Assembly (NCBI GenBank): GCA_902539235.1
Contig: CACBIC010000003.1
Coordinates: 1 to 64,000 of the forward strand
DNA: 64,000 bases
Source: an uncultured Pelagibacteraceae bacterium
Lineage (GTDB): Bacteria; Pseudomonadota; Alphaproteobacteria; Pelagibacterales; Pelagibacteraceae
Reading direction: 5' to 3'
Shown here: positions 2,353 through 57,953 of the stretch, piece after piece
Layout: each line of letters opens with the position of its first letter
How positions within the stretch are numbered: position 1 is the stretch's first letter
The notes under the pieces: generated by a model
The model's input: only the letters and a program-made list of their open reading frames with translations
The model's database searches: none
Told to the model about the DNA's origin: nothing
Made by a program: the position numbers and the translations under genes

Positions 2353-3399
2353 TTAATTGAATAAATTTTGGAAATTTCTTTTTTGTCTTGCCTGCCAATG
2401 CTTACGATGATACGCATCGCTTGCTATAAGGGGTAATACACTTGTGGCTTCAGCAAAAACCATTTGTTCCTTCGTCACATCTACTTTACCCCATGAGCTT
2501 GCCTCTTTAAGAGTAGAACTGCTGCAGGCACCGTCTCTTGTATCTGCCACAGTTATTTGAATAGCGTACTTATGCATATCTACTTTTTTACCCAATAACT
2601 CTGCACAAACCACTGTATCTTGAATAAAATTTTTAGGGACTCCACCTCCAACCATCAATAATCCTGATTGTTTAGATTTGAGTTTAATTTCAGTTAACTC
2701 TCTAAACTCTCTTATAGAGTCAATAGTAATATGATCTTTAGGATTCTGTTCTTGGTGCATTACAAGTCCAAATCCCGCAGAACTGTCAGTAAAAGCTGGG
2801 CAAAAAATTGGAACATTGTTGTCATAAGCCGATTCTATTAATGAGTCTTTCTTTTTTGCATTTTTTTTTAAGTATTTTCCAAGTTCTTTTATAAACTCTC
2901 GTGATGTGTATGGTTTTGGTTTAAGCGAATTAGCAATTTCACATATAGTTTTATCACATGCTTGTAACTCCTCCTCATCTATGTATGTGTCATATATTCT
3001 ATCAATATAGTTATTTCTTAATTCAGTATCATCTTGAAACTGAGATCCTTGATAATGTTTAAAACCTAGAGCTTCAAAAAAGTCCATATCAATGATTGAA
3101 GCCCCTGTAGCCACAATAGCATCAACCATATTATGTTTGACTAAATCGGTATATAAATCCATACATCCGCCTGCAGAAGTCGATCCTGCTATTGTTAAAA
3201 AAATTGAACAATTTTTATCCTCAAGCATCTCATTATAAATGCCTGCTGCTCTAGCTGTATCTCGTGAGGTAAAAGACATTTTACTCATTCCATCAATAAT
3301 TTTACGAGCATCAAAAGATTTTATATCAATATGTTCAATAGGAGAATTGAGTAGAGATTTTTTATTGTGTCCGATATTTGGACTATTTTTTTTATTCAT
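2353..3399 (-). CDS. Deoxyhypusine synthase-like protein (probable homospermidine synthase)
   Basis: LTIAGSTSAGGCMDLYTDLVKHNMVDAIVATGAS and GGGVPKNFIQDT; DHS fold in a bacterial polyamine cluster. Confidence 0.85.
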   Translation of the reverse strand: MNKKNSPNIGHNKKSLLNSPIEHIDIKSFDARKIIDGMSKMSFTSRDTARAAGIYNEMLEDKNCSIFLTIAGSTSAGGCMDLYTDLVKHNMVDAIVATGASIIDMDFFEALGFKHYQGSQFQDDTELRNNYIDRIYDTYIDEEELQACDKTICEIANSLKPKPYTSREFIKELGKYLKKNAKKKDSLIESAYDNNVPIFCPAFTDSSAGFGLVMHQEQNPKDHITIDSIREFRELTEIKLKSKQSGLLMVGGGVPKNFIQDTVVCAELLGKKVDMHKYAIQITVADTRDGACSSSTLKEASSWGKVDVTKEQMVFAEATSVLPLIASDAYHRKHWQARQKRNFQNLFN

Positions 3400-4577: not shown

Positions 4578-4631
4578 CATTTCATGTGTCCCTCGCGTTA
4601 AATTACACAAAGATTTTTTAAAAAATTTAAT

Positions 4632-4670
4632 AAAAAAAACCTTATTTATTTCGCGTTTAAGGTTTTTTTT
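4632..4670. terminator. Bidirectional intrinsic terminator-like hairpin
   Basis: AAAAAAAACCTTA ... TAAGGTTTTTTTT inverted repeat flanked by A/T tracts, between divergent genes. Confidence 0.6.
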
Positions 4671-4741
4671 ACTTTATGTAAAGGAAAAAAGGACATTTTT
4701 GTCGTGTTGAAATTTTGTCAACAGTACCTATATGAGGTCTC

Positions 4742-5314
4742 ATGAGGTCACAAAAAAACGTTCCAGAGCAGCTAAAATTAGCAGACTTTGCTGATAAATC
4801 GCTTCTTATTCTTGATGATGACGACCCGCTCAGAGGAAGACTTGCCAGAGCTATGGAAAAGAAAGGTTTTCAGGTTAAAGAGGCTAAAACCGTTGCTGAA
4901 GGACTTAACATAGTTAAAACGGCTCCGACAGCCTTTGCAGTGGTGGACTTAAGATTAGAAGATGGAAGCGGTCTGGACGTAGTAAAAGAACTTTACAAAA
5001 ACAGAAAAGAAAGCAGAATTGTAATGCTAACGGGTTACGGGAATCTACCTACAGCTGTAGCAGCTGTTAAAGATGGAGCTATCGACTATATAGCCAAACC
5101 TGTTGATGCAGATGATGTTGAGGCCGCATTGTTAGCCTCGCCCCAATCGAAAGCAAAACCTCCAGAAAATCCAATGTCAGCTGATAGAGTAAAGTGGGAG
5201 CATATCCATAGAGTTTTTGAATTATGCAATAGAAACGTTTCAGAAACAGCAAGAAGACTTAAGATGCACAGAAGAACATTACAAAGAATTCTCTCTAAAA
5301 GGTCTCCAAGGTAA
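4742..5314 (+). CDS. regA: Response regulator, RegA/ActR/PrrA type with Fis-like HTH
   Basis: Receiver domain (DDDDPLRGRL, VVDLRLEDGSGL, MLTGYG, IAKP) plus C-terminal NVSETARRLKMHRRTLQRIL. Confidence 0.85.
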   Translation: MRSQKNVPEQLKLADFADKSLLILDDDDPLRGRLARAMEKKGFQVKEAKTVAEGLNIVKTAPTAFAVVDLRLEDGSGLDVVKELYKNRKESRIVMLTGYGNLPTAVAAVKDGAIDYIAKPVDADDVEAALLASPQSKAKPPENPMSADRVKWEHIHRVFELCNRNVSETARRLKMHRRTLQRILSKRSPR

Positions 5315-5316
5315 AT

Positions 5317-5868
5317 TTAAATAAATTTCCTAAGTCTTTTAAGTTGTTTTACCATTAGAGTTGCAATTAAAACTTTTAATAACTCAGCTAATAAAAAAGG
5401 TTGAGCTCCAAGCTCAAATATTGGTTTTTCCCAACCAATCAAACTTCCTAACCAAAGCATACCTAAAATATAAATAAAACTTGTTGCTAAACTTAGTTTT
5501 AAAAAAGTTTTGATTAAGTTGTTATCGTAAATAAATTTACCGGCTAAATATCCTGTAACAATAAAACCAATTAGGTAACCCATTGTAGGTCCTACAAAAT
5601 ATACTAAACCAACTCCTTTTTCAGGTGTGCCCGAAAAAACTGGTAAGCCTATAATACCTTCAAACAAGTATAATGAGATTGTAGCTACAGCAAGTTTCCA
5701 ACCTAAAGTGATACCTATCAGCAATACAACAAATGTTTGCATTGTCATCGGCACAGGATAAAAAGGGATTTTAATTTTAGAAGATATTGCCAAAAGTATT
5801 GAACCAATCAAAGCAACAAATATATATTTTATAAATTTTGCTTGTTTTAAACTTTTTACAAATTCCAT
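5317..5868 (-). CDS. bioY: Biotin transporter BioY
   Basis: BioY signature: PFYPVPMTMQTFVVLLIG, GxxLG, GPTMGYLIGF. Confidence 0.9.
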   Translation of the reverse strand: MEFVKSLKQAKFIKYIFVALIGSILLAISSKIKIPFYPVPMTMQTFVVLLIGITLGWKLAVATISLYLFEGIIGLPVFSGTPEKGVGLVYFVGPTMGYLIGFIVTGYLAGKFIYDNNLIKTFLKLSLATSFIYILGMLWLGSLIGWEKPIFELGAQPFLLAELLKVLIATLMVKQLKRLRKFI

Positions 5869-5899
5869 TAGCTTAATTTAGCTTTTTTTAAACTAAAAT

Positions 5900-6830
5900 C
5901 TAGTGTTTTGTTAATTGTACAAAAACATCTTCTAAATCGCCATCTTCAGTGGAAATATCCTTAATTTCAATATTATTTTGATTTAGATAATCAACTATCT
6001 CGCTAAAATCTAAAGAATTTTTTTCATATGTAACTGAAACTGTATTTTTGTTTATTATTTTAAACTTTGCATCTTCTATAAATAATTTTCTTTCTAAATC
6101 AATATTTTTTACTTTAAAATTAATTTTTTTAGTTTTAATTCGCTCTAGCAATCTTTCAGTAGTGTCTAATGCAACTAAATTACCTTTATCTATAATAGCT
6201 ATTCGATCACACATTTCTTGAGCTTCGATAAGATAATGTGTAGTTAATATTATAGTAACACCCTCATTATTGAGTTCTTTAACATTTTCCCATAAGTTAT
6301 TTCTAAGTTCAACATCCACGCCAGCGGTGGGTTCATCTAAAACTAGAATTGGTGGTTGATGTACCATTGCTTTAGCAATAAGCAATCTTCTTTTCATACC
6401 TCCAGACAAGCTTCTAGAATAAGCATTAGCTTTATCCTGGAGCGATACCATTTTAAGTATCAAGTCAGTAATTCTATTTTTTCTTGTTACTCCGTATAAC
6501 CCAGCTTGAAGTTCTAATAATTTTTTTGGGACTAAAAAAAGCATCTAGATTTACTTCTTGAGGAACTATTCCTATTGATGCCCTTACCTGACGAGGATTT
6601 TTATCTAAATCAAAACCCCACACATTAACTTTACCACTTGTCTTTGTAACAGCGCCACCTAGAATACTTAAAAATGTTGTTTTTCCTGCTCCGTTGGGAC
6701 CAAGCAGCCCAAAAACTTCACCTTGTTTAACATTAAAATTTAATTCATTTAATGCTTTGTTTTGTTTTTTGTTTTTAGAGTTGGAGTATATCTTTGTAAG
6801 ATTCTCAACAGTTAAGGCAAATTTATTCAT
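5900..6830 (-). pseudogene. ABC transporter ATP-binding protein, split into two frames by an apparent 1-nt indel
   Basis: ORF 6474..6830 carries Walker A (GLLGPNGAGKTT); ORF 5900..6544 carries signature (SLSGGMKRRLLIAKAMVHQPPILVLDEPTAGVD) in another frame; the frames join at CCCAAAAAAATTATTAG near 6530. Confidence 0.8.
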
Positions 6831-42233: not shown

Positions 42234-43319
42234 ATGAAAAGTTTTTTTGATCTCACGTTTAATCAGTTAAAAGAATTTTTAATTGATAAAGTTGGTATTG
42301 CTGAAAAGCAAGCTAAGATGAGATCTCAGCAAATGTTCAATGCTATTTACAAAAAAAATATCAAAAGTTTCGATGAATTAACAACTTTTAGTTTAGATTT
42401 AAGAGAAAAAATAAAAGATTTAATTAGCTTAGAAAGATCTGCGAAAATAATTGAAATTCAAAAATCAAAAAATGATGGAACAATTAAATTTTTATTAGAG
42501 TTAAATAAGGATAAACGACAAACAGAAACAGTTTTAATTCCCAACAAAAGTAAATCTAAATACACAATTTGTCTTTCAGTAAGTGTTGGTTGCTTCCTGA
42601 ACTGCCAGTTCTGTGCTACAGCTCAAATACCTAAAAAACTTGTCAGAAATTTATCCGCTTCAGAGATTATGTCTCAAATAATGATTTGCAAAGAATATTT
42701 AAATGATTGGAAGACAAGTAATAAATTAGTTAAGACACAAGTTTTGATGGGGTCTGGGGATTTTGCCTTAAACGCTGAAAATGTTCGCACTTATATTCAA
42801 AATGCAAAACACAAAGACTCGCTAGATTACGGTAGAACTCGAATTACTGTCTCAAGTGTAGGTCTGGGTAATAAGATAAAAGATTTAAGTGTTATAGAGT
42901 GGGCGGCTAGGGAGCTTGATGTTTATTTTGCTTGGAGTTTACATAATCCTATAAACAAACAAAGGTTAGAGATGATGCCTAACGGTAATTATTCAATAGA
43001 TGATTTAATTCCTAAATTTAAAAAATATTATCAAATAACAAAATTACCAATATTCATAGAGTATGTTGCGTTAGAAAATAATATTACTAAAGAACACGCT
43101 AACGCTTTGGTTTCATTAATGAAAAAAGTACCAAGCAAATTGAATTTGATTGAATATAACCCTTTAGATAATCGAGATTTTAAACCTGCAACACAAGAAA
43201 ATATCGATATTTTTTCTAAAATTATTCAAGATAATGGTTTCTTAGCTTTATTTAGAAAATCAAAAGGTAGAGATATCAATGCCTCTTGTGGTAGCCTAGC
43301 ATTAAAAAGAGTTACTTAA
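42234..43319 (+). CDS. rlmN: 23S rRNA (adenine2503-C2)-methyltransferase
   Basis: SVSVGCFLNCQFCATAQ radical SAM CxxxCxxC, VLMGSGDFALNAENV, SLHNPINKQRLEMMPN. Confidence 0.9.
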   Translation: MKSFFDLTFNQLKEFLIDKVGIAEKQAKMRSQQMFNAIYKKNIKSFDELTTFSLDLREKIKDLISLERSAKIIEIQKSKNDGTIKFLLELNKDKRQTETVLIPNKSKSKYTICLSVSVGCFLNCQFCATAQIPKKLVRNLSASEIMSQIMICKEYLNDWKTSNKLVKTQVLMGSGDFALNAENVRTYIQNAKHKDSLDYGRTRITVSSVGLGNKIKDLSVIEWAARELDVYFAWSLHNPINKQRLEMMPNGNYSIDDLIPKFKKYYQITKLPIFIEYVALENNITKEHANALVSLMKKVPSKLNLIEYNPLDNRDFKPATQENIDIFSKIIQDNGFLALFRKSKGRDINASCGSLALKRVT

Positions 43320-44269
43320 TGTTTCAAGACTTGAATATTTTCTTAGGTGCTGTTGTGGCAGACGCAGCCGCTCGCCCTCTTCATTGGGTATATGATCCTA
43401 AGAAGTTAAAAAGATATATTAGAGGCAAAAAAGAAATTGCTTTTCTAAAAGAAAACAAATCCCCCTTTTATGCTTTGGAGACGGGCTTTACATCAGGCTA
43501 CGCAGACATGGGATTAGTTATGTTCCAAACAATAATTAACTCTCAAAAAAAATCAGACATACTTTCAAATTTTAAAAAAAATATAGTTCAACATTTTGGT
43601 CCTTCTTCTAATTACTGGAAAAATTTAAAAGAGAGAAAAAAATATAAAAAGATTAAATGGAAGCGTCCGTTACAGGGCAACTGGTTGCACCAGAATACAC
43701 TTGAGACCATTCAGAACATTAAAGAAAAAAAAAGGATCACAGGAGGTACAAAAGTTCAAGAAACAGACGGATTTAATGCGGCATTACCATATTATTTTTT
43801 AGTAAGCAAAGAAGATAGAGAAATTAAAAAAGTCATTAGAACTTGCGCAAATACTGATAAAAATGAACTTTATGGATTGGCAAGACTAAAGATTATAGAT
43901 TTAGCTAGCAAAGGGGAGGAAAATCCTATTCAAAAATTTATTAAATTAAATATTAAAAATAGATATTTTAAAAATGTAATCACAGACATTAAGAAGGTAT
44001 TAAAACTTAAAAATCAAAATCATACTTACGTTACAAGAATGCTGGGGAAAGCATGCTCAGATAATTCGAACTTTATGAGTTCAATTCATTGCATAATTAC
44101 TTCAAGCAATTATGAGTCTGCAATCATTAAGACAATTAAAGCTGGAGGATGTAACTGCAGCAGAGCTATTTTTTGTGGATCTTATTTTTCAGCGTTAAAA
44201 AAAAGGAGTATCCCTTTAGCTTGGATTAAAAAAACCAACGCAGCACAAAAAATTTTAGAGTATCTTTAA
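43319..44269 (+). CDS. ADP-ribosylglycohydrolase superfamily protein (divergent, J1-crystallin/SelJ-like)
   Basis: GAVVADAAARPLHWVYD; C-terminal GGCNCSRAIFCGSYFSALKKRSIPLAWI. Confidence 0.75.
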   Translation: MFQDLNIFLGAVVADAAARPLHWVYDPKKLKRYIRGKKEIAFLKENKSPFYALETGFTSGYADMGLVMFQTIINSQKKSDILSNFKKNIVQHFGPSSNYWKNLKERKKYKKIKWKRPLQGNWLHQNTLETIQNIKEKKRITGGTKVQETDGFNAALPYYFLVSKEDREIKKVIRTCANTDKNELYGLARLKIIDLASKGEENPIQKFIKLNIKNRYFKNVITDIKKVLKLKNQNHTYVTRMLGKACSDNSNFMSSIHCIITSSNYESAIIKTIKAGGCNCSRAIFCGSYFSALKKRSIPLAWIKKTNAAQKILEYL

Positions 44270-44510: not shown

Positions 44511-47500
44511 TTATTTGACTTTATAATCAAGCAATTTAAAAAAATTATTCATTAATTTTATCTGATTTATATTTTTAGGGGAAAATTCTAAAAGTTTTGG
44601 ATTAAAGAGTATTATTGATGCTACTTGTGCTCTTGATATAGCTACATTCAATCTATTTTTATCAAAGAAAAATTCTTTATTTCTTGGCAATGTTTCGCTA
44701 TCCGATGAAGTCATTGAAATAATATTTACAGGCGCCTCCTGACCTTGAAATTTATCTATTGTACCAACTCTAGCATTTTTAATTTTTTCCTCCTCCAATT
44801 TAGCTATCATTAGATTAACCTGTGTATTGTAGGGACTTATTATTAAAAAATCTTTAACATTGAGTTCTCTTTTTTTACCATTATCGTTGAATTCGCTACC
44901 TATCATTTGTTTCATTAAATCAATGACTGTATCAATTTCTTCTAAACTTGTTTGAACATTGTTTTTATGGTTCATTTCTATGTAATGAATACCAGGATTT
45001 TGAATAATACATTTTTTATCAAATTTAATAATTCTTTTTTCTGTTCTCTCATCACAATTAAGCCTTCCTTCGTAAAAATTAGATGATATAAATTTATTAA
45101 TTTTTGAGTGCATCCGATAAGTTTTATTTAAGAATATTCCTCTATTTTCAGGGATTGTATCCCGACCCTCTAGGAGATAATCCAATATAGATTGACCGGA
45201 CTCGTTTGGGTGAGTTCCTTTTATTGGTTGTCCTAACTGGTTTTGATCTCCGATTAAAACAATATTTTTAGCTATATTACCAATACTAATTAAATCTGCT
45301 AAACTTACCTGTCCAGCTTCATCAATAAATAAGTAATCGATTTTGCTATCGTAATAAGAACTCGCTAAGTGATATTTTGTACCAGCAAAAATTTGACCTG
45401 CATCTTTTATTTTTAATGCATTCATGAAAACCGGATCTTTTTCATGAGTTTTAATAAAATCTCCATTAAATATTGTATCTTCATCCTCAAGGTTTCCCCG
45501 TTTATATCCAATGATTGTTAATTGTTTCTCCTTTGCCATATCTTCGACTTTTTGCAATAGATTATGAATTACTTTATGAGACAAACCTGTAATTGCGATC
45601 TTCTTTTTTTGCTTCAATAATTCTATAATTGCGTTTGAAGCTTGAAACGTTTTTCCAGTGCCGGGTGGCCCCTGAATATAGATATAGCTATTATTTAAGT
45701 TTAAAATAATCTTCGGAATTTCTTTAATAAAATCATTTGATTGAATAATTTTTTCTCCAGTTTTTATACCCGTTATATTTGGATATTTTTTTTCTAAGAA
45801 ATCAATTAATGAGCTATATTTTTTCTCTTTATTTATTAGAGAGTCTATAAATTTATATGTATTTGAAACTAACTTTGTATTAGGTCTTGGTTTATCCGGA
45901 CCTATTGATAAAATTTTAGGCAAAATTCCTTGAGAGGTTCCTCTTTTTATTAAAATATCTTTTTTTTTATAATCGATTTCAATAATTGTCCCTGCATAAT
46001 CTTTTTGCTCAATATCTTGATTATTTGCAATCACAGTTTTTTTACTTTTTCTAAGCTTAAAATCTTGATCCTCAAATTTATAAGAATACAGCAAAGATTT
46101 TTTATCTGGTTTGGGCTCACCTTCTAACTTCATATTTCCTATACATTCTGGATCTTCAATTAATTCTTCATCAGATTTAGTTCTTCTTTCAAAAAACTCA
46201 CGCCAAGCAGGCTTATCTTCACGATTATAAAAACCTATTATGTCTGACATTAATTGTTTAATTTTTTTATTTTCAATTTTAGATTTTTCAACTTTTTCTT
46301 GATATGTGATCATATCAATTTCAAAATCTCTTAACTCCATTTCTCCATTTTTCTTCGGAATGAACCAAGAAGTTTCTTTAGGTTTTTTATCTAATAACCA
46401 TTTATGTAGTTCATAAGTAGAATGACAGTCTTGTTTGTTGTAACTTTCTATTTCTTCTAAAAATTTTTTATCGTTTGTTTCTAGCCATTCAATATAATAT
46501 TCTTGCGATATATCCCCTCTTTGTACATCGCCCTCTCTTTCAAAGTTATAAAATTTTTCCGTATTTTTTAAAGAATTACTATTCTCAGAAATAAAAAGTC
46601 CTTGTCTATTAACTTCCAATAAATTTACAAATTTATCCAAGTTAAGATAATGGTCATATTCAATACCTTTTACTTTATGGAAAGAGGATAGTTTTAATAA
46701 TGCTGTTATTTCATAACTGCCGTAATGATAAATTTTTGAATTTGGGTATTTTTCAAAATGTTGTTTTGTAAAATCAAAAAACTTAATTAAGTTTTTTTTT
46801 TCTTCACTCTTGTTGTGAGACCATAATGCTTTGAAATTTTCTTTTCCATTTTCAATATAAAAAATTCCAAATAAATATTCCAAACCTCCGGGATATATAT
46901 GATCTTCAACACTTTCGATATCAAAGTATAAATCACATTCAGAGGGTTTAGGTAACAAGTTAAAACCTTTTGATCCATTTAAGTTATAAGGATTTGGTTT
47001 ATATATTGGAATACCTGTCTTCTCATATTCTTTTTGTAGCTTAGCTTGCGTAACTAATTTGTAAGAAATTTCTTTTCTAAAACCCTTTAAAGGTTTATTT
47101 TCATCTTGTTTTGATAATTTAGTCGCTGTATCCATTTTTATATTGAGTAATTTTTTTAAGTGCACTTTTGTCAATCCACCTACTTGATTGAGATTATCCT
47201 CTTTTTTCCAAATATTTTCACACCGATCTAGCCATTCACAAGTTTCACAGGCGCTACATTTCTCCGGTTTTGTTTTATTTACTAAAGTTTCAATAAATTT
47301 TTCGTAATTTTCTCTAGTTTTTTTAAAAAATTGATTTACCTGATGTACTTGCACTTCTTCTTGAACCATATTCTTCAAAACTATGATGAATTTTTTCGGT
47401 AAAACTCCTTGAGTTGCCTCTAACATAAATGTGTATGAACCCAATTGTATGATATGATCTGGTTTAGGTTTATTAGAGTATTTTGTATCTATTACTTCAT

Positions 47501-47873
47501 AACTATAGTCTCCAAATTTAGATTTTTGATCTTTATTAATAATTAAGAAATCAAATTCACCACTCCATTTATCTCTTTTTAACCACCCACCAAAAATAAT
47601 CTCAAAACCTTCTTTCATTGCCTGAACGGTTTTTGAGATTTTTTCCTCTTTGGTGAGTTTTTGGTCCTTTAAATTAAGTGTTTTCTTAAACTTTTTCTTT
47701 AATTCCTTAAAATATTCTTTTTCATGAATATTTCCTCTTTCAATTCTGAGCTTGTCATTTGTTTTTAGCTCAATTCTTTTGAGTTTGAGCTTTTCTTTGT
47801 TTATTTCATTAAATATTTTATACTTACAACTCAAGTATCTTCTAAGCATCGTAGGAGAAAAAAGATTTTTCAT
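44511..47873 (-). CDS. TM0106-type RecB-like nuclease fused to DNA2-like SF1 helicase
   Basis: 1120 aa; CSACETCEWLDRC cysteines, DLYFDIESVED RNase H-like, IQGPPGTGKTFQ, YLFIDEAGQVSLADL, GDQNQLGQP, GTIDKFQGQEAPV. Confidence 0.88.
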   Translation of the reverse strand: MKNLFSPTMLRRYLSCKYKIFNEINKEKLKLKRIELKTNDKLRIERGNIHEKEYFKELKKKFKKTLNLKDQKLTKEEKISKTVQAMKEGFEIIFGGWLKRDKWSGEFDFLIINKDQKSKFGDYSYEVIDTKYSNKPKPDHIIQLGSYTFMLEATQGVLPKKFIIVLKNMVQEEVQVHQVNQFFKKTRENYEKFIETLVNKTKPEKCSACETCEWLDRCENIWKKEDNLNQVGGLTKVHLKKLLNIKMDTATKLSKQDENKPLKGFRKEISYKLVTQAKLQKEYEKTGIPIYKPNPYNLNGSKGFNLLPKPSECDLYFDIESVEDHIYPGGLEYLFGIFYIENGKENFKALWSHNKSEEKKNLIKFFDFTKQHFEKYPNSKIYHYGSYEITALLKLSSFHKVKGIEYDHYLNLDKFVNLLEVNRQGLFISENSNSLKNTEKFYNFEREGDVQRGDISQEYYIEWLETNDKKFLEEIESYNKQDCHSTYELHKWLLDKKPKETSWFIPKKNGEMELRDFEIDMITYQEKVEKSKIENKKIKQLMSDIIGFYNREDKPAWREFFERRTKSDEELIEDPECIGNMKLEGEPKPDKKSLLYSYKFEDQDFKLRKSKKTVIANNQDIEQKDYAGTIIEIDYKKKDILIKRGTSQGILPKILSIGPDKPRPNTKLVSNTYKFIDSLINKEKKYSSLIDFLEKKYPNITGIKTGEKIIQSNDFIKEIPKIILNLNNSYIYIQGPPGTGKTFQASNAIIELLKQKKKIAITGLSHKVIHNLLQKVEDMAKEKQLTIIGYKRGNLEDEDTIFNGDFIKTHEKDPVFMNALKIKDAGQIFAGTKYHLASSYYDSKIDYLFIDEAGQVSLADLISIGNIAKNIVLIGDQNQLGQPIKGTHPNESGQSILDYLLEGRDTIPENRGIFLNKTYRMHSKINKFISSNFYEGRLNCDERTEKRIIKFDKKCIIQNPGIHYIEMNHKNNVQTSLEEIDTVIDLMKQMIGSEFNDNGKKRELNVKDFLIISPYNTQVNLMIAKLEEEKIKNARVGTIDKFQGQEAPVNIISMTSSDSETLPRNKEFFFDKNRLNVAISRAQVASIILFNPKLLEFSPKNINQIKLMNNFFKLLDYKVK

Positions 47874-47959: not shown

Positions 47960-47988
47960 TTGACATTAAAATTACTTTGATTTATAAG
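47960..47988 (+). promoter_or_regulatory. Consensus sigma-70 promoter of the 48108-53355 operon
   Basis: TTGACA-N17-TATAAG. Confidence 0.75.
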
Positions 47989-48013
47989 GGAATTGTTAAG
48001 AATTATTAGATAA

Positions 48014-48076
48014 CCTTGTAATGTAGTCGAAGTTGTTCTTAATATCCTTTCGAAGAATATTTCCTATATTACAAGG
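48014..48076 (+). promoter_or_regulatory. Structured 5' leader (long-range stem)
   Basis: CCTTGTAATGTAG ... CTATATTACAAGG, 13 bp with one G.U, enclosing an inner TTCTT/AAGAA pairing; lies between promoter and first ORF. Confidence 0.55.
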
Positions 48077-48107
48077 CTATAAGACTTAAAACTAAGGAGT
48101 TTTTGTT

Positions 48108-48329
48108 ATGAATTGTAATAAACCTAAGGAATATATTAAATATTTCTCGTGTTATAACTGCAACTGTCTCGGTTTTTTTCAGGAAACTAGAGGACTTTTA
48201 ACAGTTTTAGGGTGGAAACTTTCGCTTAGCAAAACTCGACCTTGTTATATGTGTTCTGGCAAGGGTTTTGTGGCATCTAAAAAAATAATAACAAAAAAAA
48301 ATAATTACAAATCATTTTTGACTCACTGA
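48108..48329 (+). CDS. Small zinc-ribbon protein (DnaJ-type CxxC knuckles)
   Basis: CYNCNCLGFF and CYMCSGKGF in 73 aa. Confidence 0.7.
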   Translation: MNCNKPKEYIKYFSCYNCNCLGFFQETRGLLTVLGWKLSLSKTRPCYMCSGKGFVASKKIITKKNNYKSFLTH

Positions 48330-48331
48330 TA

Positions 48332-49915
48332 ATGACACTAGAAGATAAAAAAATAGAGATTTACAAAAACTTGTTACTCGGTATTTCAGGAGTGACAGAG
48401 GCTAAATATCTAAAAACAGTCGAGTCTTCCGTTACAACATCCTGGGGCGTTAATTGGGATCACGATTACATTGCTCGAGACATTTTACAAAATTTTAGAG
48501 ACGCCAATCTTAAAGAAATTGATAAAATTGATATAAAAGTTTATGACGATCAAATTCTGGTCTCTGCTAAAAATTCATTCGATATACGAAAATTATTTTA
48601 TATGGGCTCAAATAAATCTGGAGACGATGAAACAATAGGTGAATATGGAGAGGGATTTAAAGCAGCTTGCGTATCCATGATTAAATTAGGTATTAATGAC
48701 CCGATTTCTATTAGTGGCGATAATGCAATAATAATCTCAGTAGGCAAAGCGGTGGTAGAAAATATGAGGCCACTTATCTACCATTATTTTAAAATTAACA
48801 AACAAAACTCAACAATTTTCAGCGTAAATACCTATGACGAAAAGCTCAAAAAAGCTTTTAAATTCGGGATGAATCATTTTTGGTATGAAAAAAATGATCT
48901 AGTTGGTCAAAAACTCTACGACTATAACGAAATAGCAGCTTATAAATCTAAGAAAGCCAAAGAAGGTTATATTTTTTATAGAGGTATTATGAGGAACACT
49001 ATTCCTCATATACCGATAGTAATTAATATTTCAAAAAAGTATGCGGCAATTGAGAATAAAATAAAAGCTGATCGAGATAGAAATTCATTTTCAAGTAAAC
49101 TCACTCAAACTTTTTTCTCAATTTACGCTAGATCAGGTTTTTACTGGGGTGGGATGAAAAACAATCCTGCAATCCATTACATCTTAAAAACATCGAAACC
49201 GATCTGGCCAAAAGGGCATCAGTTATTGAGTGCTATTGGAACATATTCTAGAAGCTTACATGAAGATCTGGTTATTAAAAAAATGTTTGCATCAAAAAAA
49301 TATTATTGTGAAAGCACTTATAATTATACATCTGGAATAACTTGGTCTGATTGGTACGATACTAAGACACAAAGCTTTGTTTTAAGACGTGATAATAAAT
49401 TTAAAAAAGATGGAAGAGTAAAATTACCAAGCTATTTTTCTAGCTTTGGCGTTTTGAGTTCTTTAGGACAGTTTGTGAAGAAAAAAAAAGCTGCTGAGGA
49501 AAGAGTTAAAAAGACTAAAACAGCATCGCTTACAACAAAACAAAAGAAAGCTGTAAATCTTGCTTTAGATTGTATTAGAAAAGTAGCTCCGACTTTTTCA
49601 AAATTATACAAAAACCATATTGAAGATGAGGGAATTTATGATTTGAATATTAAAATGTGTGAGTCGAAAGATCTTCTGGGGCAATTAAAAGATAATCGGG
49701 AATATAATGATAAAACTATTTTTCTTAATAAAGAGTTATTTAAAAGTAGTTTTGGAAAATTTTTTAGCACGTTAGCTCATGAAATGAGCCATGTATTTGG
49801 TCAAGACGGACAAAGAGAATTTTCTGATGTATTGACTCATTTACTAGAGCAAGCCGTGCAAAGAAATAAAATTTTAAATCAATATGCTAAAAAATGGAAG
49901 GAATTAAAATTATGA
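48332..49915 (+). CDS. GHKL ATPase domain fused to HExxH zinc-peptidase-like domain
   Basis: RDILQNFRDAN (N-box-like), GEYGEGFKAA (G2); C-terminal LAHEMSHVFGQDGQREFSDVLTHLLEQ. Confidence 0.75.
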   Translation: MTLEDKKIEIYKNLLLGISGVTEAKYLKTVESSVTTSWGVNWDHDYIARDILQNFRDANLKEIDKIDIKVYDDQILVSAKNSFDIRKLFYMGSNKSGDDETIGEYGEGFKAACVSMIKLGINDPISISGDNAIIISVGKAVVENMRPLIYHYFKINKQNSTIFSVNTYDEKLKKAFKFGMNHFWYEKNDLVGQKLYDYNEIAAYKSKKAKEGYIFYRGIMRNTIPHIPIVINISKKYAAIENKIKADRDRNSFSSKLTQTFFSIYARSGFYWGGMKNNPAIHYILKTSKPIWPKGHQLLSAIGTYSRSLHEDLVIKKMFASKKYYCESTYNYTSGITWSDWYDTKTQSFVLRRDNKFKKDGRVKLPSYFSSFGVLSSLGQFVKKKKAAEERVKKTKTASLTTKQKKAVNLALDCIRKVAPTFSKLYKNHIEDEGIYDLNIKMCESKDLLGQLKDNREYNDKTIFLNKELFKSSFGKFFSTLAHEMSHVFGQDGQREFSDVLTHLLEQAVQRNKILNQYAKKWKELKL

Positions 49916-50820
49916 TTTATAACCTTAAAATTTCAACACCTATTCAAAAAAGCAATATAGTTGTGTTCTTTTTAAAAAACCATGAAATGGAGGAACACAC
50001 TTATTTGAACTTAAATGAAGGTTTAAGCAAAAATAAAATTAGCATCAAAGAATATGAAGAAGTGGGTTATAGAGATTTGCTAAATATTAAAAATTTATCA
50101 AACGAAAGTTTGTTACTTTTAAACGGTGAACAAATAATTGGTCACAAGATAAAACAAAATAGAGTAGTAGCAAGCTCAGCATTAATAGAAAAAAATTCTG
50201 AAGGAATAATAAGAGTATCCTGTGGTGAAAAAAATAGATGGTCGGCATTAACCAACGAGGATATCAGCACATCTGACTCAATGTTTTTCTCACGGCAAAC
50301 ACTTCATAAACAGAACCTATCGTGGGGACAGATAGATAGCTATCTTTATCAAAATGGCATTAAATCTCTTACTAAAGACTCATCAATAGTTTACAAGAAG
50401 AATAAAATAACTGTAGATAATATCGTTGAGTCGTTTAAAACAGAGGCTAACGTAATTGGTTTAGCGATAGGAAATCATTTTGGTATTACAAGCTTAGATG
50501 TCTTTTCAAACCCTTTACTATTTCAGCATTACTACAAAAAAATTTTAAGAAGTTACGTACTTGCAAATTTAAGTAATAATAAAAAAATAATAAATTTAAA
50601 TGAGCAAGACGTGAATATTTTTCTTCAAAATGTATACGTTGCAAGAAAAAGAAAAATTATGAATTTAAAAGGACAACACGGTGAAAAATACTCTCTGCAA
50701 AGCAATAAAATTGTAGGTAATGTTTTGTATGATAAAGCTAAAGTAGTTCATTTTACTGCGTTACTTAAAAATGATTTGAATGAACTTCCAGACAAAAATA
50801 AAACAAGAAAGGCAGCTTAA
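49912..50820 (+). CDS. ARPP-1-like domain protein (PF20208-type)
   Basis: LLNIKNLSNESLLLLNGEQIIGHKIKQNRVVASSALIEKNSEGIIRVSCGEKNRW; ATGA overlap with the upstream gene. Confidence 0.7.
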   Translation: MIYNLKISTPIQKSNIVVFFLKNHEMEEHTYLNLNEGLSKNKISIKEYEEVGYRDLLNIKNLSNESLLLLNGEQIIGHKIKQNRVVASSALIEKNSEGIIRVSCGEKNRWSALTNEDISTSDSMFFSRQTLHKQNLSWGQIDSYLYQNGIKSLTKDSSIVYKKNKITVDNIVESFKTEANVIGLAIGNHFGITSLDVFSNPLLFQHYYKKILRSYVLANLSNNKKIINLNEQDVNIFLQNVYVARKRKIMNLKGQHGEKYSLQSNKIVGNVLYDKAKVVHFTALLKNDLNELPDKNKTRKAA

Positions 50821-51926
50821 TGACATTTGAAATGAATTATTTGATATTTTCTATAGTTTTTCTAATTATAGGAGCTTTAGTGGGGTATTTTATTTATTCA
50901 AGATTAAACAAAGATAAGATTGATCAAAACAAAGATTTAGAAACATTAAAAACAGAAGTTGAAGACACTTTTACAAAATTACTTAACGATTTAAATAAAA
51001 AAGTCGAGTCATACCATGCTAAATCTGATCAAGATCGGGGCTCTTTAACACAAGTCCTAAAAGATATTCGTTCTATTGGTAGTGGTGTTAGTTCTGATAT
51101 TAATACCTTTAAAAATGTCTTAGTTTCAGGAGGCGCTAGAACACAAGGTCCTTGGGGACAAATGGTTCTAGAAAAAATTTTAGAAAAGATGGAGTTTACC
51201 GAAGGAACTGAATATGAAAAACAAAAATCAATTAAAACTGATGATGGACGTAAAATTCCAGATTGTATCGTTCATCTCCCAAATGACTCAGGCGATAGAA
51301 GAGATATTGTCATTGATGCTAAAGTAAGTTTGCAAGCATGGTCAGAGCACGAGGAAAGTGATGATCCAATTGTAAAAAAAGAAGCACTCAAAAGACATAT
51401 TCAATCTGTTAAAAATCATATTCGAGATTTGGCCAGCCAGAATTATCAAAATATTCCTGGTATAGAGAGTTTGGACTCAGTTATAATGTTTTCTCCAAAT
51501 GAGCAGGCAATTTTTGGTTTAGGAAAGGAAAGTAGAAATATTTTAGATCTAGCTTTTGACAAAAAAATTGTACCTGTTGGACCAACTATGCTTTATTTTG
51601 TTTTGAAGTCTGTTGCTGATAATTGGAGCAAGTCAAAACAATCAAAGAATATGCAAGAGGTAATTAAGATAGCTAATCTAGCATGTTCTCAGGCTACTGA
51701 AATTTATCATTCAGCCAAAAAATCAAAAGAAAATATTAACAAAACTCTTGAAAATTTAGATGATGTATTGGATCAAATACAAGACGGTAGAGGAAGTTTT
51801 TTAGGAAGAATTCAAAGAATGACTAAATTGGGCGGATTAAACCCTAAAAGCATTCCTGACGAGGCAATTAAAAATATTGAAAATGCCGAGGTTAGTAAAA
51901 TAACAAAATCAAAAAAGACCGAGTAG
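50820..51926 (+). CDS. rmuC: DNA recombination protein RmuC
   Basis: GARTQGPWGQMVLEKILEKM, IPDCIVHLPN..DIVIDAKVSLQAW, VGPTMLYFVLKSVADNW. Confidence 0.92.
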   Translation: MTFEMNYLIFSIVFLIIGALVGYFIYSRLNKDKIDQNKDLETLKTEVEDTFTKLLNDLNKKVESYHAKSDQDRGSLTQVLKDIRSIGSGVSSDINTFKNVLVSGGARTQGPWGQMVLEKILEKMEFTEGTEYEKQKSIKTDDGRKIPDCIVHLPNDSGDRRDIVIDAKVSLQAWSEHEESDDPIVKKEALKRHIQSVKNHIRDLASQNYQNIPGIESLDSVIMFSPNEQAIFGLGKESRNILDLAFDKKIVPVGPTMLYFVLKSVADNWSKSKQSKNMQEVIKIANLACSQATEIYHSAKKSKENINKTLENLDDVLDQIQDGRGSFLGRIQRMTKLGGLNPKSIPDEAIKNIENAEVSKITKSKKTE

Positions 51927-51948
51927 TTTCCTCTCATTATAACTTAAA

Positions 51949-53355
51949 ATGGACTATATATTTATAGATACTGAAAGTACAGGATCAAGCACAGTTTGGG
52001 ACCACATAACGGAGATTGGAATGATCCGAACTGATTCTAATCTCAACATAAAAGATACTTGGGAAATGAGATGTAGAATTAAGGATGGTGTTGTCCCAAA
52101 TTTGGGCGCCCTCGAGGTCACAAATTTTACTATAAAAGATTTAACTGAGTCAAATTACTCCCATTTACAAATGGTTGAGGCAATAGAAAAAAAATTCAAA
52201 GAATGGGGAAAAGTAATAGTCTTTGCATATAACGGGCAAAATTTTGATTATCCTCTTATTCAAAAGACGATGTACAAGAGTTTAAAACCACCTTATCTTT
52301 TAAATACCGAGGGAAATAAACAAGGTGATATCCTTAATGTTATTAGAGCAGCCAAACTAGTCAACCCTGAAGTAATTGAAACTCCAATATCAGACTCAGG
52401 AAATCCTGTATTTAAATTAGACAAATTGATGAAACACGAGGGTGCACACGGAGCATTAGCAGACAGTCGCGCTATGTTATCTGTTGCACAAAAGGTGTAT
52501 GAAAAATCTAATTCTGTTTGGAAATGTTCTCTTCTTACTCTCAGTCGAGCTGATAGCACTAATGTTATCATTAAAAATAAAATGTTTTGTCAACTGCAGT
52601 GGTTTTATGGACGATTAAGAAAATATTTAGTTCATCATTTTACATTTCATCCAATATTTGAAGCTTGGAGCCAGTGTTGGGATTTGAGGTGGAAGCCCGA
52701 AGATTATTTTGAATTAGACGATGAAAACTTAAAAAAAGCATTAACAAAATCTCCAAAAATTTTACGTAGTTTTAAAACAAATAAAAGTGAAGTTATCCTA
52801 AACTACAAGCACGCTTTAGATGAAAATCCCTATAAAGAAATTGGCATTGAAGAGCTAAAAAGAAGGGTGGAAATTTTAAGCAATAACTTAGAATTTAAAC
52901 AAAGAGTAAATAAAATTCTACAAGAAATTCACGATGAAAAAATCTCACTTGATAAAGAAATTGACAAAAAACTCTATCCAGAAGAAATGCTTTACACTAA
53001 TTTTCCTAAACCAGAGGATAAAAATTTAATGAAGATATTTCATCAATTTAATTGGGAGGATAAAATTGATGTTATTGATAAATTTAAAGAAGAAAGATTT
53101 TCCAGATTAGCCGAAAAATTAATTTATGAGGAAAAACCCGAGGTCCTTCCTGAAAGTACATTAAAAAAAATTAAAAGAGAAATAGCCGAAAGGATTTTTT
53201 CAACAGAAAAACAGAATTGGACAACTTTACCAGAGTTTTATAGGCAAATAGATGAGAAAAGAAGCAAGTACGAAAATGATGAAATAAAAATGAAATTATT
53301 AGATGAATATGACAAATTTGCACAAGCTATAGAGAAAAAATATGAATCTGCATAA
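51949..53355 (+). CDS. Exodeoxyribonuclease I-like DEDD exonuclease
   Basis: FIDTESTGSSTVWDHITEIG, FAYNGQNFDYPLIQKTMY, HGALADSRAMLSVAQ. Confidence 0.85.
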   Translation: MDYIFIDTESTGSSTVWDHITEIGMIRTDSNLNIKDTWEMRCRIKDGVVPNLGALEVTNFTIKDLTESNYSHLQMVEAIEKKFKEWGKVIVFAYNGQNFDYPLIQKTMYKSLKPPYLLNTEGNKQGDILNVIRAAKLVNPEVIETPISDSGNPVFKLDKLMKHEGAHGALADSRAMLSVAQKVYEKSNSVWKCSLLTLSRADSTNVIIKNKMFCQLQWFYGRLRKYLVHHFTFHPIFEAWSQCWDLRWKPEDYFELDDENLKKALTKSPKILRSFKTNKSEVILNYKHALDENPYKEIGIEELKRRVEILSNNLEFKQRVNKILQEIHDEKISLDKEIDKKLYPEEMLYTNFPKPEDKNLMKIFHQFNWEDKIDVIDKFKEERFSRLAEKLIYEEKPEVLPESTLKKIKREIAERIFSTEKQNWTTLPEFYRQIDEKRSKYENDEIKMKLLDEYDKFAQAIEKKYESA

Positions 53356-53432: not shown

Positions 53433-53801
53433 ATGGCAACCATAAAGTCTACTGACGAAACTTTTGAAAAATTAAAAAAAGAAAATAAAAATCTTTTAAT
53501 AGATTTTTGGGCACCATGGTGTCGATGAGCCCACTCACATCTTGTGGGTGGGCTCATCGATACAAACCCACGTGGTCCATGCGTTCAAATTTCTCCGGTG
53601 TTAGAGCAAATCTCTGAAGAGATGAAAGATGTAACTATTGCTAAACATAACATTGAGGAAGAATTAAATCTCCCTGTTCAATTTTCTGTGAAAAGTATAC
53701 CGACCATGATTCTTTTTTGTAATGGCGAACAAAAAGCTGTTAAAGTAGGTGCATCTAGCAAAGAAGATCTAGTGGAATTTCTTAAAAAAAACAAAATTTA
53801 A
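53433..53801 (+). pseudogene. trxA: Thioredoxin interrupted inside WCGPC by a 51-nt hairpin insert with in-frame TGA
   Basis: MATIKSTDETFEKLKKENKNLLIDFWAPWC | insert | GPCVQISPVLEQISEEM...SIPTMILF...; the halves are in the same frame. Confidence 0.9.
53523..53573. other. 51-nt GC-rich palindromic insert
   Basis: CGATGAGCCCACTCACA-TCT-TGTGGGTGGGCTCATCG + ATACAAACCCACGT; 28/51 G+C; deleting it restores TGG TGT GGT CCA TGC. Confidence 0.85.
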
Positions 53802-55051
53802 TTTTTATTCAAAATATTTGAACAAAAATAAAGACTGCCGAAACAGCAGATAATTTTTTTTTCATTACTACTAATTTTTTTTAACGCTTCTTTAAAATTC
53901 TGTGCTGTCTCAGACTTAATTTTATTGTTATTAGCTATCTTGTTGAGTTCTTTAGCAGAAACTGAACTTTCGTTTTCTATAGGAATGGTAACTATCTTTT
54001 TAAATATACCTTTCAAATTTTTAATAAATAATTCTGGCTCTTTATTCTTAGACATGGCCCAAACACCATATATGGGCAATTTTATCTTTTTAAGATAGTT
54101 GAACAAATTTAACGAGTCCGTGGGTGCATGAGCACCATCTATCATTATCATTTCATTTTTATGCAACATTTTTTTTATGTTACCTTTTTTTAAATAATCA
54201 TATCGACCTGGAAAAGATAGGTTGGGAATAGTTTTTTTTATTACTTTTTTGCTGATATTTAAATCTAAAGCTATTTTGATAGCATGAGCAATATTACTAA
54301 ACATGCCCTCGCTATGTACATTTTTAGCATTAAGCTTTATTTTCGCTGACTTATCTTGGTAAAAATAAAGATTATTTTTTTTTATTAATCTCCAAGAACT
54401 TGGATAATGGATTATACTTTTATTTTTTTTCAAATAAAGTTTAGCCCTCTTTAATACATAGGGGGTTTGTTTTGCTATATATATGTTACTAAAGCTGGAT
54501 AAATACCCTGTATCCTCTTTGATTATTTCACTTAGAGTTTTTTTTTTAAGAAAGTTTTTATGTTGCAGATTAATATTTGTAACGACTTGAGCGAGGGGGA
54601 AAGAAAAGATATTCGAGCAATCATTTTTCCAAAGAGCTCCAGTCTCTATAATAAAGTAATCTACATTTAGTTTAGACGCATTTATTACATAAACCAAAGT
54701 AAGAACTTCGTACACAGTTAAGGGAATTTTTAATTTTTCAATCTTTTTAATAGTCTCTTTAATTTCTCTATAAGATAAATATCCTTTTCCCATATAGTAT
54801 CTATCTCGAATATCAAAAATTGACGGCGAAGTGTAAGTTGACACAGTTTGATTGTTAGCTTCTATGAAATTTTTTAATGACCACAGCGTAGTGAATTTTC
54901 CTGACTCACCAAGTACGCTAATAACGTTATTAAGTTTCCTTTCTGGATTTCCTAATAAATTGAGAGCAAGTTTGATTCTTTTAAGACCAAACTTTACAGA
55001 TTTATTAAATAATTTATGACGCGTTAGATGCTGGTATATCAACTTTGACAT
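53798..55051 (-). CDS. folC: Dihydrofolate/folylpolyglutamate synthase
   Basis: NVISVLGESGKFTTLWSLKNFIEAN, MIDGAHAPTDSLNLF. Confidence 0.9.
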   Translation of the reverse strand: MSKLIYQHLTRHKLFNKSVKFGLKRIKLALNLLGNPERKLNNVISVLGESGKFTTLWSLKNFIEANNQTVSTYTSPSIFDIRDRYYMGKGYLSYREIKETIKKIEKLKIPLTVYEVLTLVYVINASKLNVDYFIIETGALWKNDCSNIFSFPLAQVVTNINLQHKNFLKKKTLSEIIKEDTGYLSSFSNIYIAKQTPYVLKRAKLYLKKNKSIIHYPSSWRLIKKNNLYFYQDKSAKIKLNAKNVHSEGMFSNIAHAIKIALDLNISKKVIKKTIPNLSFPGRYDYLKKGNIKKMLHKNEMIMIDGAHAPTDSLNLFNYLKKIKLPIYGVWAMSKNKEPELFIKNLKGIFKKIVTIPIENESSVSAKELNKIANNNKIKSETAQNFKEALKKISSNEKKIICCFGSLYFCSNILNKN

Positions 55052-55970
55052 TTGATGTTGACTCAGCTTTTGCCTCTTTTTCTGATTTTTTGAGAAGCAC
55101 TCTTATTAGACTTGTAATTCTCTCTCTAATTTCAATTCTTGATTTAAAAACACCATCAATCATACCTAACTCTTGTAAACTTGATGAAACACCGAAGTTT
55201 TCAGGTAGTGCTTGCCCTTTGTTAACAGATGCTGAAACTCTCTTCCCAGCAAAAAGCTGCGATTGGTTACCGGGATTGGTAGAAAATAAAAAATCATTAC
55301 CGTATGTGTTGCAAAACGTTCCGCCGGTAATTTTAGCTTCCAAAATTCCGATTGTGATGATGCCTGCTTTTCTTAATTCTCTCATCGCAAACATTTGCTT
55401 TGGCATTGTGCTGAGTCCGTGGATATTAGTCGCTACCGACATCCCACCGCTTTGATATATTGAGATTACTCCGTCAACTTTTTCATCTAATGCTTTTTGT
55501 ATACCACTTAAGAGTTGCTCATTTTCTCGGGGTGTCATAGCAGATCCGCCGAATGCAAAATTGTAACCAAAAGCAACTATTTTTAATCCATTAACTGTCC
55601 CTAAACCTGCTAGGATCGCTGAGTCTTGATTAGTTTTTTTAACATTAGCATTATATTTATCTATATATTTTGTTTCACCAATTTTGAAATTTAAAGGGTC
55701 TGGGTTAGCAGGAGGGCAAGGTATTCTCTCCCACTCTCCGTCATCAAATAAAAGTTCTGTAAATAAAATTTTTGGATCAAGGTCAAAGTGATGAGTACAT
55801 TCGCAGACATTAAAGTTTTTTTTAAGATCATCTCTTAATTTCATTTGATTGCAACCGGGGCAATTAACCCAAGTACTATTTGCTTGCTCGGCTTTTGAAG
55901 GTCTTTTTCTTTTAAAAGTTTGTTTTGCTTTTTCTACAAAGCTTTGTAATTTTGCTTGAATCCAATTCAT
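55014..55970 (-). CDS. accD: Acetyl-CoA carboxylase carboxyltransferase subunit beta
   Basis: WVNCPGCNQM zinc ribbon, GSAMTPRENEQLLSGIQKAL, SGGMSVATNIHGLSTMPK. Confidence 0.95.
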   Translation of the reverse strand: MNWIQAKLQSFVEKAKQTFKRKRPSKAEQANSTWVNCPGCNQMKLRDDLKKNFNVCECTHHFDLDPKILFTELLFDDGEWERIPCPPANPDPLNFKIGETKYIDKYNANVKKTNQDSAILAGLGTVNGLKIVAFGYNFAFGGSAMTPRENEQLLSGIQKALDEKVDGVISIYQSGGMSVATNIHGLSTMPKQMFAMRELRKAGIITIGILEAKITGGTFCNTYGNDFLFSTNPGNQSQLFAGKRVSASVNKGQALPENFGVSSSLQELGMIDGVFKSRIEIRERITSLIRVLLKKSEKEAKAESTSNVKVDIPASNAS

Positions 55971-56770
55971 CTCAATTCTTCTACAAAAGTTTTGATTATA
56001 TTTCCAACATTTTTTGGCAATTTAGTGTCATTTAAATTTTTTCCAATGTATTCAACTATACTAGAGCCAACAATAACACCATCACAACCAGTCTGGGTCA
56101 TTTTTTTTGCATCTCCGGGTGTTTTGATGCCGAATCCTGAGCAAACAGGTAAATCGGTATAAGTTTTAATTTTTTTTATCATATTTTTAACGTCTTCTAA
56201 ATTAGCTGATTTAGAGCCTGAGATACCAGAAAAATTTAGACTGTAAACCCAACCAGAAAATAAATTTGATAATTTTTTAAGCCTTTCTTCTTTAGTTGTT
56301 GGAGCCACTAATTTTATCAAAGAAAGATTTTTTTTATTCATCAAGTTTCTAAGCTCATTCTCTTCTCGTAATTCATGTGGTGCATCAACAACTAAACAAC
56401 CATCAGCGTCTACTGAAGCTAAGTCACTCACAAAGTTTTTAATAGGATATTTGAAAATATTAGACATATAGCCCATTAAAATGATGCCAACATCATTGTT
56501 ATAGTTTCTGACAGCTTTTGCCAATTTTATAGTATCTTTTAAAGTAACATTTCTTTGTAAGCAATGATCATGAGCATTTTTAATAATTATTCCTTCACCA
56601 CTTGCCTCCTGTGTAGGAAAACCAATTTCACAAATATTAACTCCAGCATCTATTGATTTCTTGATTATTTCTAATGATTTTTCAAAATTAGGATAACAAG
56701 CAACAAAGTAAGCTATCATTTTTGTTTTTTGTGATTTATTGGAGAAAATCTTTTTAAATCTATTACTCAA
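55967..56770 (-). CDS. trpA: Tryptophan synthase alpha chain
   Basis: EIGFPTQEASGEG, ILMGYMSNIFKY, CSGFGIKTPGDAKKM. Confidence 0.95.
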   Translation of the reverse strand: MSNRFKKIFSNKSQKTKMIAYFVACYPNFEKSLEIIKKSIDAGVNICEIGFPTQEASGEGIIIKNAHDHCLQRNVTLKDTIKLAKAVRNYNNDVGIILMGYMSNIFKYPIKNFVSDLASVDADGCLVVDAPHELREENELRNLMNKKNLSLIKLVAPTTKEERLKKLSNLFSGWVYSLNFSGISGSKSANLEDVKNMIKKIKTYTDLPVCSGFGIKTPGDAKKMTQTGCDGVIVGSSIVEYIGKNLNDTKLPKNVGNIIKTFVEELR

Positions 56771-57953
56771 AATCTTTACCTATTAAGCGTTCAATTACAT
56801 CAAGGTCTTTTTCTACTCTTCCACATGCTGTGGCACAGATAATATAGTCCTTAGGTTTACCTTTGGCTCTTTTCAAAGCTTCAGTGACTGCCGCAGCAGG
56901 TTCAAATGAAATTCCTATACCTTCGTTTTGTGCGACAAGCTTATAAGTCTCTAAAAGTTCCTTATCATTTGCAGTGGAGGCTTCTATTGCACCAATATCT
57001 TTAAGATGTGCTAACTGAGGAGATATTCCATAGTACATAATTCCAGCTCCGAGTGAACTTCCGCCAAGTGACTTTGATCCATCATCTGATTGAAGAAATT
57101 TCGTTACCATACCTTGCTGAATTCCTTTTGTACCATTAGTTAGAGCAGCAGTCTCTTCAGCTTCAACAACAACTTTTTTAATTTCAGGCTCATCCAAAAA
57201 TTCAAAAATTGAACCAGTAAAATTACTACCCGCTCCAGCACATGCTATTATTTCATTTGGAAGTTTTCCTTCAAGTTCCATAAACTGCTCTCTCATTTCT
57301 TTTCCAATGATGCTTTGAGCGTATCTTACGATATCAACAAATGGTGAAGAGGAACATGTGGAACCAATTAAATAGTAATAATCTGGATTATTAGACCATT
57401 CTTTTATAGCCGCTGTTATAGCTTCACGAAGTGAGCCTTCAACAATTTTGAGCTTTCCCCCATAATGTTTAGCTTTTATTAAATTTTGATTAACCCGTGC
57501 GCAATCAATTTTTCCCATCACTCCTACTATTGGCATACCAAACTTAGCAGCAGTAGCAGCAGCTGCAGACCAATGTTGACCTGCTCCAGATTCACAAATA
57601 ATTTTTTTCTTACCCATTCTTTTTGCAAGTAAAACTTGAAACAAAGTATTTGTAGGTTTGTGACTACCTGTATGATTTAAATGTTCTTGTTTGAAATAAA
57701 TTTTTGCTCCACCAATTTTATTTGTTATTCGTTCGGCAAAATATATCGGGCTTGGCCTTCCAATCCAATGTTTGCAGTAATAAGCAAATTCATCTAAGAA
57801 TTTTTTATCTTTAATTGCAGCCTCAAAAGCTTTTTTAAGCTCTTCAAGATTATTCATTAAATTCTCTCCAGCTGCTATTCCTCCATATTCACCGAAATAG
57901 CCATCTTTATCAGAACCAGTTTTTAAAGAATTTTTAATTTTTTCTGTGCTCAT
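56763..57953 (-). CDS. trpB: Tryptophan synthase beta chain
   Basis: GRPSPIYFAERIT, EHLNHTGSHKPTNTLFQVLLAKRMGKK, CAGAGSNFTGSI. Confidence 0.97.
   Translation of the reverse strand: MSTEKIKNSLKTGSDKDGYFGEYGGIAAGENLMNNLEELKKAFEAAIKDKKFLDEFAYYCKHWIGRPSPIYFAERITNKIGGAKIYFKQEHLNHTGSHKPTNTLFQVLLAKRMGKKKIICESGAGQHWSAAAATAAKFGMPIVGVMGKIDCARVNQNLIKAKHYGGKLKIVEGSLREAITAAIKEWSNNPDYYYLIGSTCSSSPFVDIVRYAQSIIGKEMREQFMELEGKLPNEIIACAGAGSNFTGSIFEFLDEPEIKKVVVEAEETAALTNGTKGIQQGMVTKFLQSDDGSKSLGGSSLGAGIMYYGISPQLAHLKDIGAIEASTANDKELLETYKLVAQNEGIGISFEPAAAVTEALKRAKGKPKDYIICATACGRVEKDLDVIERLIGKDFE

Follow-up and report, generated by a model that had tools for sequence, protein, structure and literature searches.

The window, a 64,000-nucleotide stretch of DNA from an uncultured Pelagibacteraceae bacterium, carries five open reading frames in a row on its forward strand (48108-53355). 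They encode a small zinc-finger protein, a GHKL ATPase with a predicted C-terminal HExxH metalloprotease domain, an ARPP-1 domain protein, an RmuC protein and an ExoI-like exonuclease (Table 1). When the reading frames were re-read, their coordinates and spacings (in order a 2-nt gap, an ATGA overlap, a TAATG overlap and a 22-nt gap) agreed with the five co-directional genes reported in the preliminary description of this DNA. The consensus promoter claimed there, TTGACA-17 nt-TATAAG, was also present. Alignment showed that the site is kept in two related strains (L011 and L012; the latter has TATAAT as its -10 box), and in a scan alone promoter-like sites in the region were no commoner than in shuffled sequences (25 vs 26.4). 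Between promoter and first gene lies a leader of which ∼90 nt are nearly invariant between the window, L011 and L012. It folds into a long stem (CCTTGTAATGTAG / CTATATTACAAGG; fold z = -2.2) and is possibly a regulatory RNA; a search of the operon, leader included, against Rfam gave no match. The leaders of L013 and L017 differ from that of the window and resemble each other. A WGR-domain gene upstream was absent from the preliminary description.

Table 1. Features of the locus, in window coordinates.
Feature	Position	Strand	Basis and remarks
ADP-ribosylglycohydrolase	43319..44269	+	PF03747, E 1e-15; resident neighbour in the genus, not module-specific
WGR-domain protein, 67 aa	44271..44474	-	PF05406, E 3e-15; accessory, in most GHKL loci
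TM0106-family RecB-like nuclease with SF1 helicase, divergent	44511..47873	-	TIGR03491, E 8e-69
Promoter TTGACA-17 nt-TATAAG	47960..47988	+	read directly from the sequence
5' leader with long stem	47990..48107	+	alignment with L011/L012, fold
DnaJ-type zinc-finger protein (CxxC...CxxCxGxG), 73 aa	48108..48329	+	motif; L017 homologue, PF00684
GHKL (MORC/topoisomerase II type) ATPase fused to predicted C-terminal HExxH metalloprotease	48332..49915	+	motifs, AF2, Foldseek
ARPP-1 domain protein	49912..50820	+	PF20208, E 4e-44; homologues in GHKL loci; start at the ATGA overlap
RmuC: N-terminal TM anchor, coiled coil, PD-(D/E)XK-type motif (IPDCIVH...IVIDAKVS)	50820..51926	+	PF02646, E 2e-64; alignment
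ExoI/SbcB-like DEDD 3'-5' exonuclease with Exonuc_X-T_C	51949..53355	+	Pfam, alignment, PDB relatives

Proteins encoded by the operon

The first gene, described earlier as a Zn-ribbon, has the CxxC pair of a DnaJ-type zinc finger, and its L017 homologue matched PF00684 at E 0.0064, a match too weak to pass the cut-off. The second protein had no Pfam match and only a weak match to the sacsin N-terminus. A Foldseek search with its AF2 model (pLDDT 82) retrieved the T6 topoisomerase II ATPase (E 2e-4), MORC2, HSP90 and MutL, and the N-box, the G2 box and the Bergerat fold that define GHKL proteins were all recognized by alignment and in the model. The motifs D/ExxxNxxD (N-box), GxxGEG and HExxH were conserved in 21 homologues with 40-99% identity to the window, and H483, E484, H487 and D492...D499 were invariant in the 21 sequences. 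The proposed fusion of an ATPase and a peptidase was thus upheld, its C-terminal domain being a predicted HExxH metalloprotease. The protein is not among the models of PADLOC 2023.

The assignment of the third protein to the ARPP-1 family also held, with 151 bits against a gathering score of 27 for PF20208. Its AF2 model (pLDDT 69) had no significant match in the PDB, literature searches on ARPP-1 found nothing, and searches of PDB sequences with profiles of GHKL, ARPP-1 and RmuC returned nothing but matches that look spurious. RmuC and the DEDD exonuclease were both confirmed by their domains, the latter by Exonuc_X-T_C (5e-15) and RNase_T (9e-10). Relatives of the exonuclease were found among PDB sequences at ∼2e-17, and its DEDDh residues D7, E9, D100, H167 and D172 were invariant in five sequences, as in the SbcB family. 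The PD...DxK motif of RmuC was kept in all aligned GHKL loci except L015 and L016, where it reads VE...DAH. These degenerate copies (L015, 3128-4156; L016, 12505-13533) take the place of the active allele beside a GHKL protein of 98% identity, and their loss of the catalytic lysine implies that RmuC catalysis is not always needed. Literature searches on a defence role of RmuC together with SbcB or ExoI, and on RmuC in Pelagibacter, found nothing.

The RmuC-ExoI site in Pelagibacterales

Of 147 Pelagibacterales genomes, 136 had RmuC and 130 had the C-terminal domain of ExoI, each in one copy; GHKL-HExxH was present in five of an equal sample of 147 from the same order. Where GHKL carriers are 92-99% complete, they too have a single RmuC; the genome of the window itself is a 71%-complete assembly. 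The single-copy RmuC and ExoI genes adjoin trxA-folC, which places the locus of the window within this core locus. Among 40 further loci, the ordinary order in the genus of the window was ADP-ribosylglycohydrolase-RmuC-ExoI-trxA followed by folC-accD-trpA-trpB, and outside the genus it was hisG-RmuC-PD-(D/E)XK-like nuclease-ExoI-trxA. That RmuC-ExoI-trxA is the ordinary gene order of the lineage had not been recognized in the preliminary description. In the window, the WGR, TM0106, zinc-finger, GHKL and ARPP-1 genes are inserted between the glycohydrolase and RmuC. The glycohydrolase also adjoins RmuC in four loci without GHKL (L124, L127, L129 and L130), and the ADP-ribosylglycohydrolase context mentioned earlier for ARPP-1 was not supported as a feature of the module. 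An ADP-ribosylation circuit as the core idea was rejected, because genus mates lacking GHKL also carry the glycohydrolase and not every GHKL locus has ARPP-1.

The window RmuC is only ∼14% and the ExoI ∼36% identical to the copies of genus mates; between those genus mates the identities are 83% (RmuC) and 88% (ExoI). Two of the five genes are therefore foreign alleles in a core locus. The window holds a replaced version of the SAR11 RmuC-ExoI locus whose alleles came with the GHKL-HExxH protein, and our tentative reading is that the whole forms an anti-phage module. Because RmuC and ExoI are nearly universal at this site, the novelty lies in the exchangeable GHKL-HExxH/ARPP-1 part and in the RmuC and ExoI alleles that stand in for the resident ones.

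The same near-universal pair at a fixed site, one RmuC and one ExoI per genome, would fit a housekeeping role in DNA-end processing or recombination, with the GHKL-HExxH protein, whose fold resembles those of MutL, topoisomerase and MORC, as a lineage-specific regulator of repair rather than of defence; PD-(D/E)XK and TM0106 nucleases nearby would suit such a role. On balance we consider this unlikely, since the GHKL gene is sparse (5/147), travels with its own RmuC and ExoI alleles, has partners that diversify fast and sits among defence genes.

Genes of restriction-modification, DISARM-like, Mza and Pbe systems recur at the site. At or beside GHKL loci we found type II methylase and restriction genes (L018), HsdR (L017), MzaB/C (L027) and a Z1/MzaC-like helicase (L033). 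Other loci carried, at or beside the same site, DrmA/DrmB (L132 and L145), a methyl-directed restriction mREase (L145), an MTase (L126), an MzaB-like protein with a NERD helicase (L123) and PbeA/C (L142). In another proteobacterium (L225), ARPP-1 adjoins what appear, read by eye, to be type I restriction-modification and ADP-ribosylglycohydrolase genes. The L142 site (2810-6033) also holds an inserted DUF2130 protein and a 694-aa leucine-rich-repeat-like protein.

Directly downstream of ExoI, trxA (53433-53801) carries a 51-nt insert (53523-53573) after its first catalytic Cys codon (WC^GPC), with an in-frame TGA as the second codon of the insert and a 17-bp hairpin. The same insert with 2/51 changes was found in L011 (15178). 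For the part after the insert, the window and L011 differ by a dS of 0.52 and a dN of 0.02 (dN/dS ∼0.04), which points to purifying selection beyond the stop. Unrelated hairpin inserts occupy the same position in L194 (374), L031 (12847), L126 (5390, -), L205 (318, -) and L195 (627, -)/L196. The inserts are 41-52 nt long and their second or third codon is an in-frame stop, those of L194, L031, L126 and L205 shift the frame, and removal of each gives W-C-G/S-P-C. Most trxA genes are uninterrupted, and no tRNA-Sec passed its cut-off in the genus. Translational bypassing is known from T4 gene 60 and mitochondrial byp; the trxA inserts resemble these bypassed segments or a tiny excised element, and programmed bypassing, excision of a tiny element or other recoding are candidate mechanisms.

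Comparison of 25 GHKL loci

The window was compared with 24 fetched GHKL loci. In every Pelagibacteraceae locus long enough to judge, GHKL occurred together with RmuC and ExoI, always inside their cluster and most often immediately before RmuC or ARPP-1-RmuC. Co-occurrence in homologous loci, on which the preliminary description had made its candidate operon depend, was thus found. The arrangement zinc finger-GHKL-ARPP-1-RmuC-ExoI was present in 8 of the 25 loci, making ARPP-1 an optional component. In a second arrangement ExoI-S24-like is divergent from F13-WGR-F12-GHKL-RmuC-F8, with the S24-like protein in place of ARPP-1, and L033 has a distant form. The TM0106 nuclease-helicase is accessory (15/25).

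Pairwise distances of GHKL co-varied with those of ExoI (Mantel rho 0.88) and RmuC (0.74); for the flanking genes rho was 0.64 (FolC), 0.38 (AccD), 0.36 (TrxA), 0.06 (TrpA) and -0.23 (TrpB). GHKL presence changed six times on the RmuC tree and five times on the ExoI tree, against ∼20 and ∼19 after shuffling (0/500 shuffles as low; quick trees with long branches). We regard the linkage of GHKL, RmuC and ExoI as well supported because the distances co-vary and changes are few despite heavy recombination in the region, with the caveat that RmuC was swapped under a nearly constant GHKL between L013 and L015 (GHKL 98% identical, RmuC alleles unrelated at 16%). GHKL is the conserved part, and ARPP-1, RmuC and ExoI diverge faster. 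As to the earlier claim of a five-gene unit, the coherence stood, but RmuC and ExoI are nearly universal at the site and not special partners.

Recombination in the region also reaches housekeeping genes: even close strains have exchanged folC, accD, trpA, trpB and trxA for alleles that are deeply divergent (window 53798-57953; L011, L012, L027 and L028), and TrpB is no more than 29% identical between strains whose GHKL proteins are 99% identical. The window and L011 are 29% identical in TrpB and 94% in FolC, and the window and L012 96% and 32%, respectively. Such swaps, together with the many unrelated cargoes at the site, would be expected if the surroundings of RmuC-ExoI-trxA were an insertion hotspot and GHKL and ARPP-1 unrelated cargo on a shared transcript. 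The constant position of GHKL within the RmuC/ExoI cluster, the co-varying distances and the distinct alleles of carriers make this explanation highly doubtful.

No relatives of GHKL or ARPP-1 were found in viral contigs, a profile search found no RmuC, ExoI or ARPP-1 neighbours of the GHKL relatives in Gastranaerophilales, and neither RmuC nor ExoI lies on the short contig that carries a GHKL-HExxH homologue from a proteobacterium (L059).

Proposed function and known systems

We tentatively propose that the locus is an anti-phage module of GHKL-HExxH with replaced RmuC and ExoI alleles; surveillance of DNA ends is the alternative role for the same module. The GHKL ATPase would clamp abnormal or foreign DNA and change shape with ATP, and this change would switch on the fused protease, which would cut another protein, be it RmuC at its membrane anchor or a repressor. 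RmuC, freed or licensed, would then cut DNA and ExoI would degrade 3' ends, with ARPP-1, or the S24-like protein in the other variant, perhaps acting as a variant-specific sensor or antitoxin. The comparisons show the linkage, the replacement of alleles, intact motifs, the folds and a setting rich in defence genes; the trigger, the protease target, the order of the steps and phage as the target are what we infer. Against the anti-phage reading, the near-universal RmuC and ExoI in the order fit housekeeping repair, the distances of FolC, too, follow those of GHKL (rho 0.64), RmuC is swapped between L013 and L015 and has no catalytic lysine in L015/L016, GHKL is not in PADLOC 2023 and the window genome is 71% complete. 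The sensor/effector module acting on DNA ends put forward earlier is retained as a coherent unit among known defence genes, but its novelty is limited to GHKL-HExxH/ARPP-1 and the replaced alleles.

A wider reading, which we hold to be somewhat unlikely, is that the single RmuC-ExoI pair serves SAR11 as an immune locus, polymorphic and nearly universal, and that its effector nucleases are exchanged as alleles along with interchangeable sensor modules; the GHKL-HExxH/ARPP-1 form would then be a new defence system, with an ATP-gated protease that licenses a nuclease tethered to the membrane. SAR11 ranks among the most abundant groups of bacteria in the ocean, is under constant phage pressure and has poorly known defences. 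If true, exchange of the sole RmuC-ExoI pair and its partner modules at a fixed site would offer a testable explanation of how immunity stays variable in streamlined genomes, and a GHKL-gated protease would be added to RmuC-based defence.

In ICEBs1 an HExxH protease, ImmA, acts as a switch with ImmR and has no GHKL domain. The likeness lies in the protease as a proposed switch; the window protein differs from ImmA in having a GHKL domain, and the window operon has no clear repressor. Regulation of this kind, in which the HExxH domain would cleave a repressor (the S24-like protein in one variant, the ARPP-1 or zinc-finger protein in the window) and derepress the nucleases instead of cleaving RmuC, would accord with the conserved promoter, the structured leader and the S24-like domain encoded by the divergent F11 gene (E 0.001, too weak to pass the cut-off). 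We judge it improbable, as that match is weak and the ARPP-1 variant has no recognized repressor or HTH.

Returning to the proposed anti-phage module, the window RmuC and ExoI matched PADLOC RTasRmuC (2e-50) and RTasSbcB (1.5e-67) of reverse transcriptase (DRT) systems, which ordinary RmuC and ExoI relatives would match too. No defence reverse transcriptase, which DRT-associated systems have in the operon, was recognized among the operon, the flanking proteins and the GHKL-locus families scanned. Mza and other GHKL defence ATPases share a GHKL ATPase in a defence operon, and MzaB/C occur at the same SAR11 site, but the window GHKL does not match MzaB, is fused to the HExxH domain and partners RmuC and ExoI.

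The closest parallel is Shield (ShdA/ShdB), reported only in Pseudomonas, in which a membrane RmuC is an anti-phage nuclease that appears to be toxic without its anchor; the operon also encodes a metallopeptidase-like regulator, and several subtypes differ in their accessory genes (PMC10270631). The window shares a membrane-anchored RmuC as putative effector, a metallopeptidase-like operon partner, variants with different accessory genes and a defence-island setting, and its RmuC has the hydrophobic N-terminus and the IPD...DAK motif of ShdA. This parallel suggests a GHKL-gated protease controlling RmuC. ShdB (types II and III) resembles M15 peptidases; the top Foldseek matches of the window protein were GHKL ATPases, with no M15 peptidase among the matches listed. 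Shield is moreover an accessory system, whereas the window RmuC replaces the only copy of the host. Because the module has a different type of protease and Shield lacks GHKL, ExoI and ARPP-1, we conclude that the module is not a member of Shield and would, by analogy, work like it.
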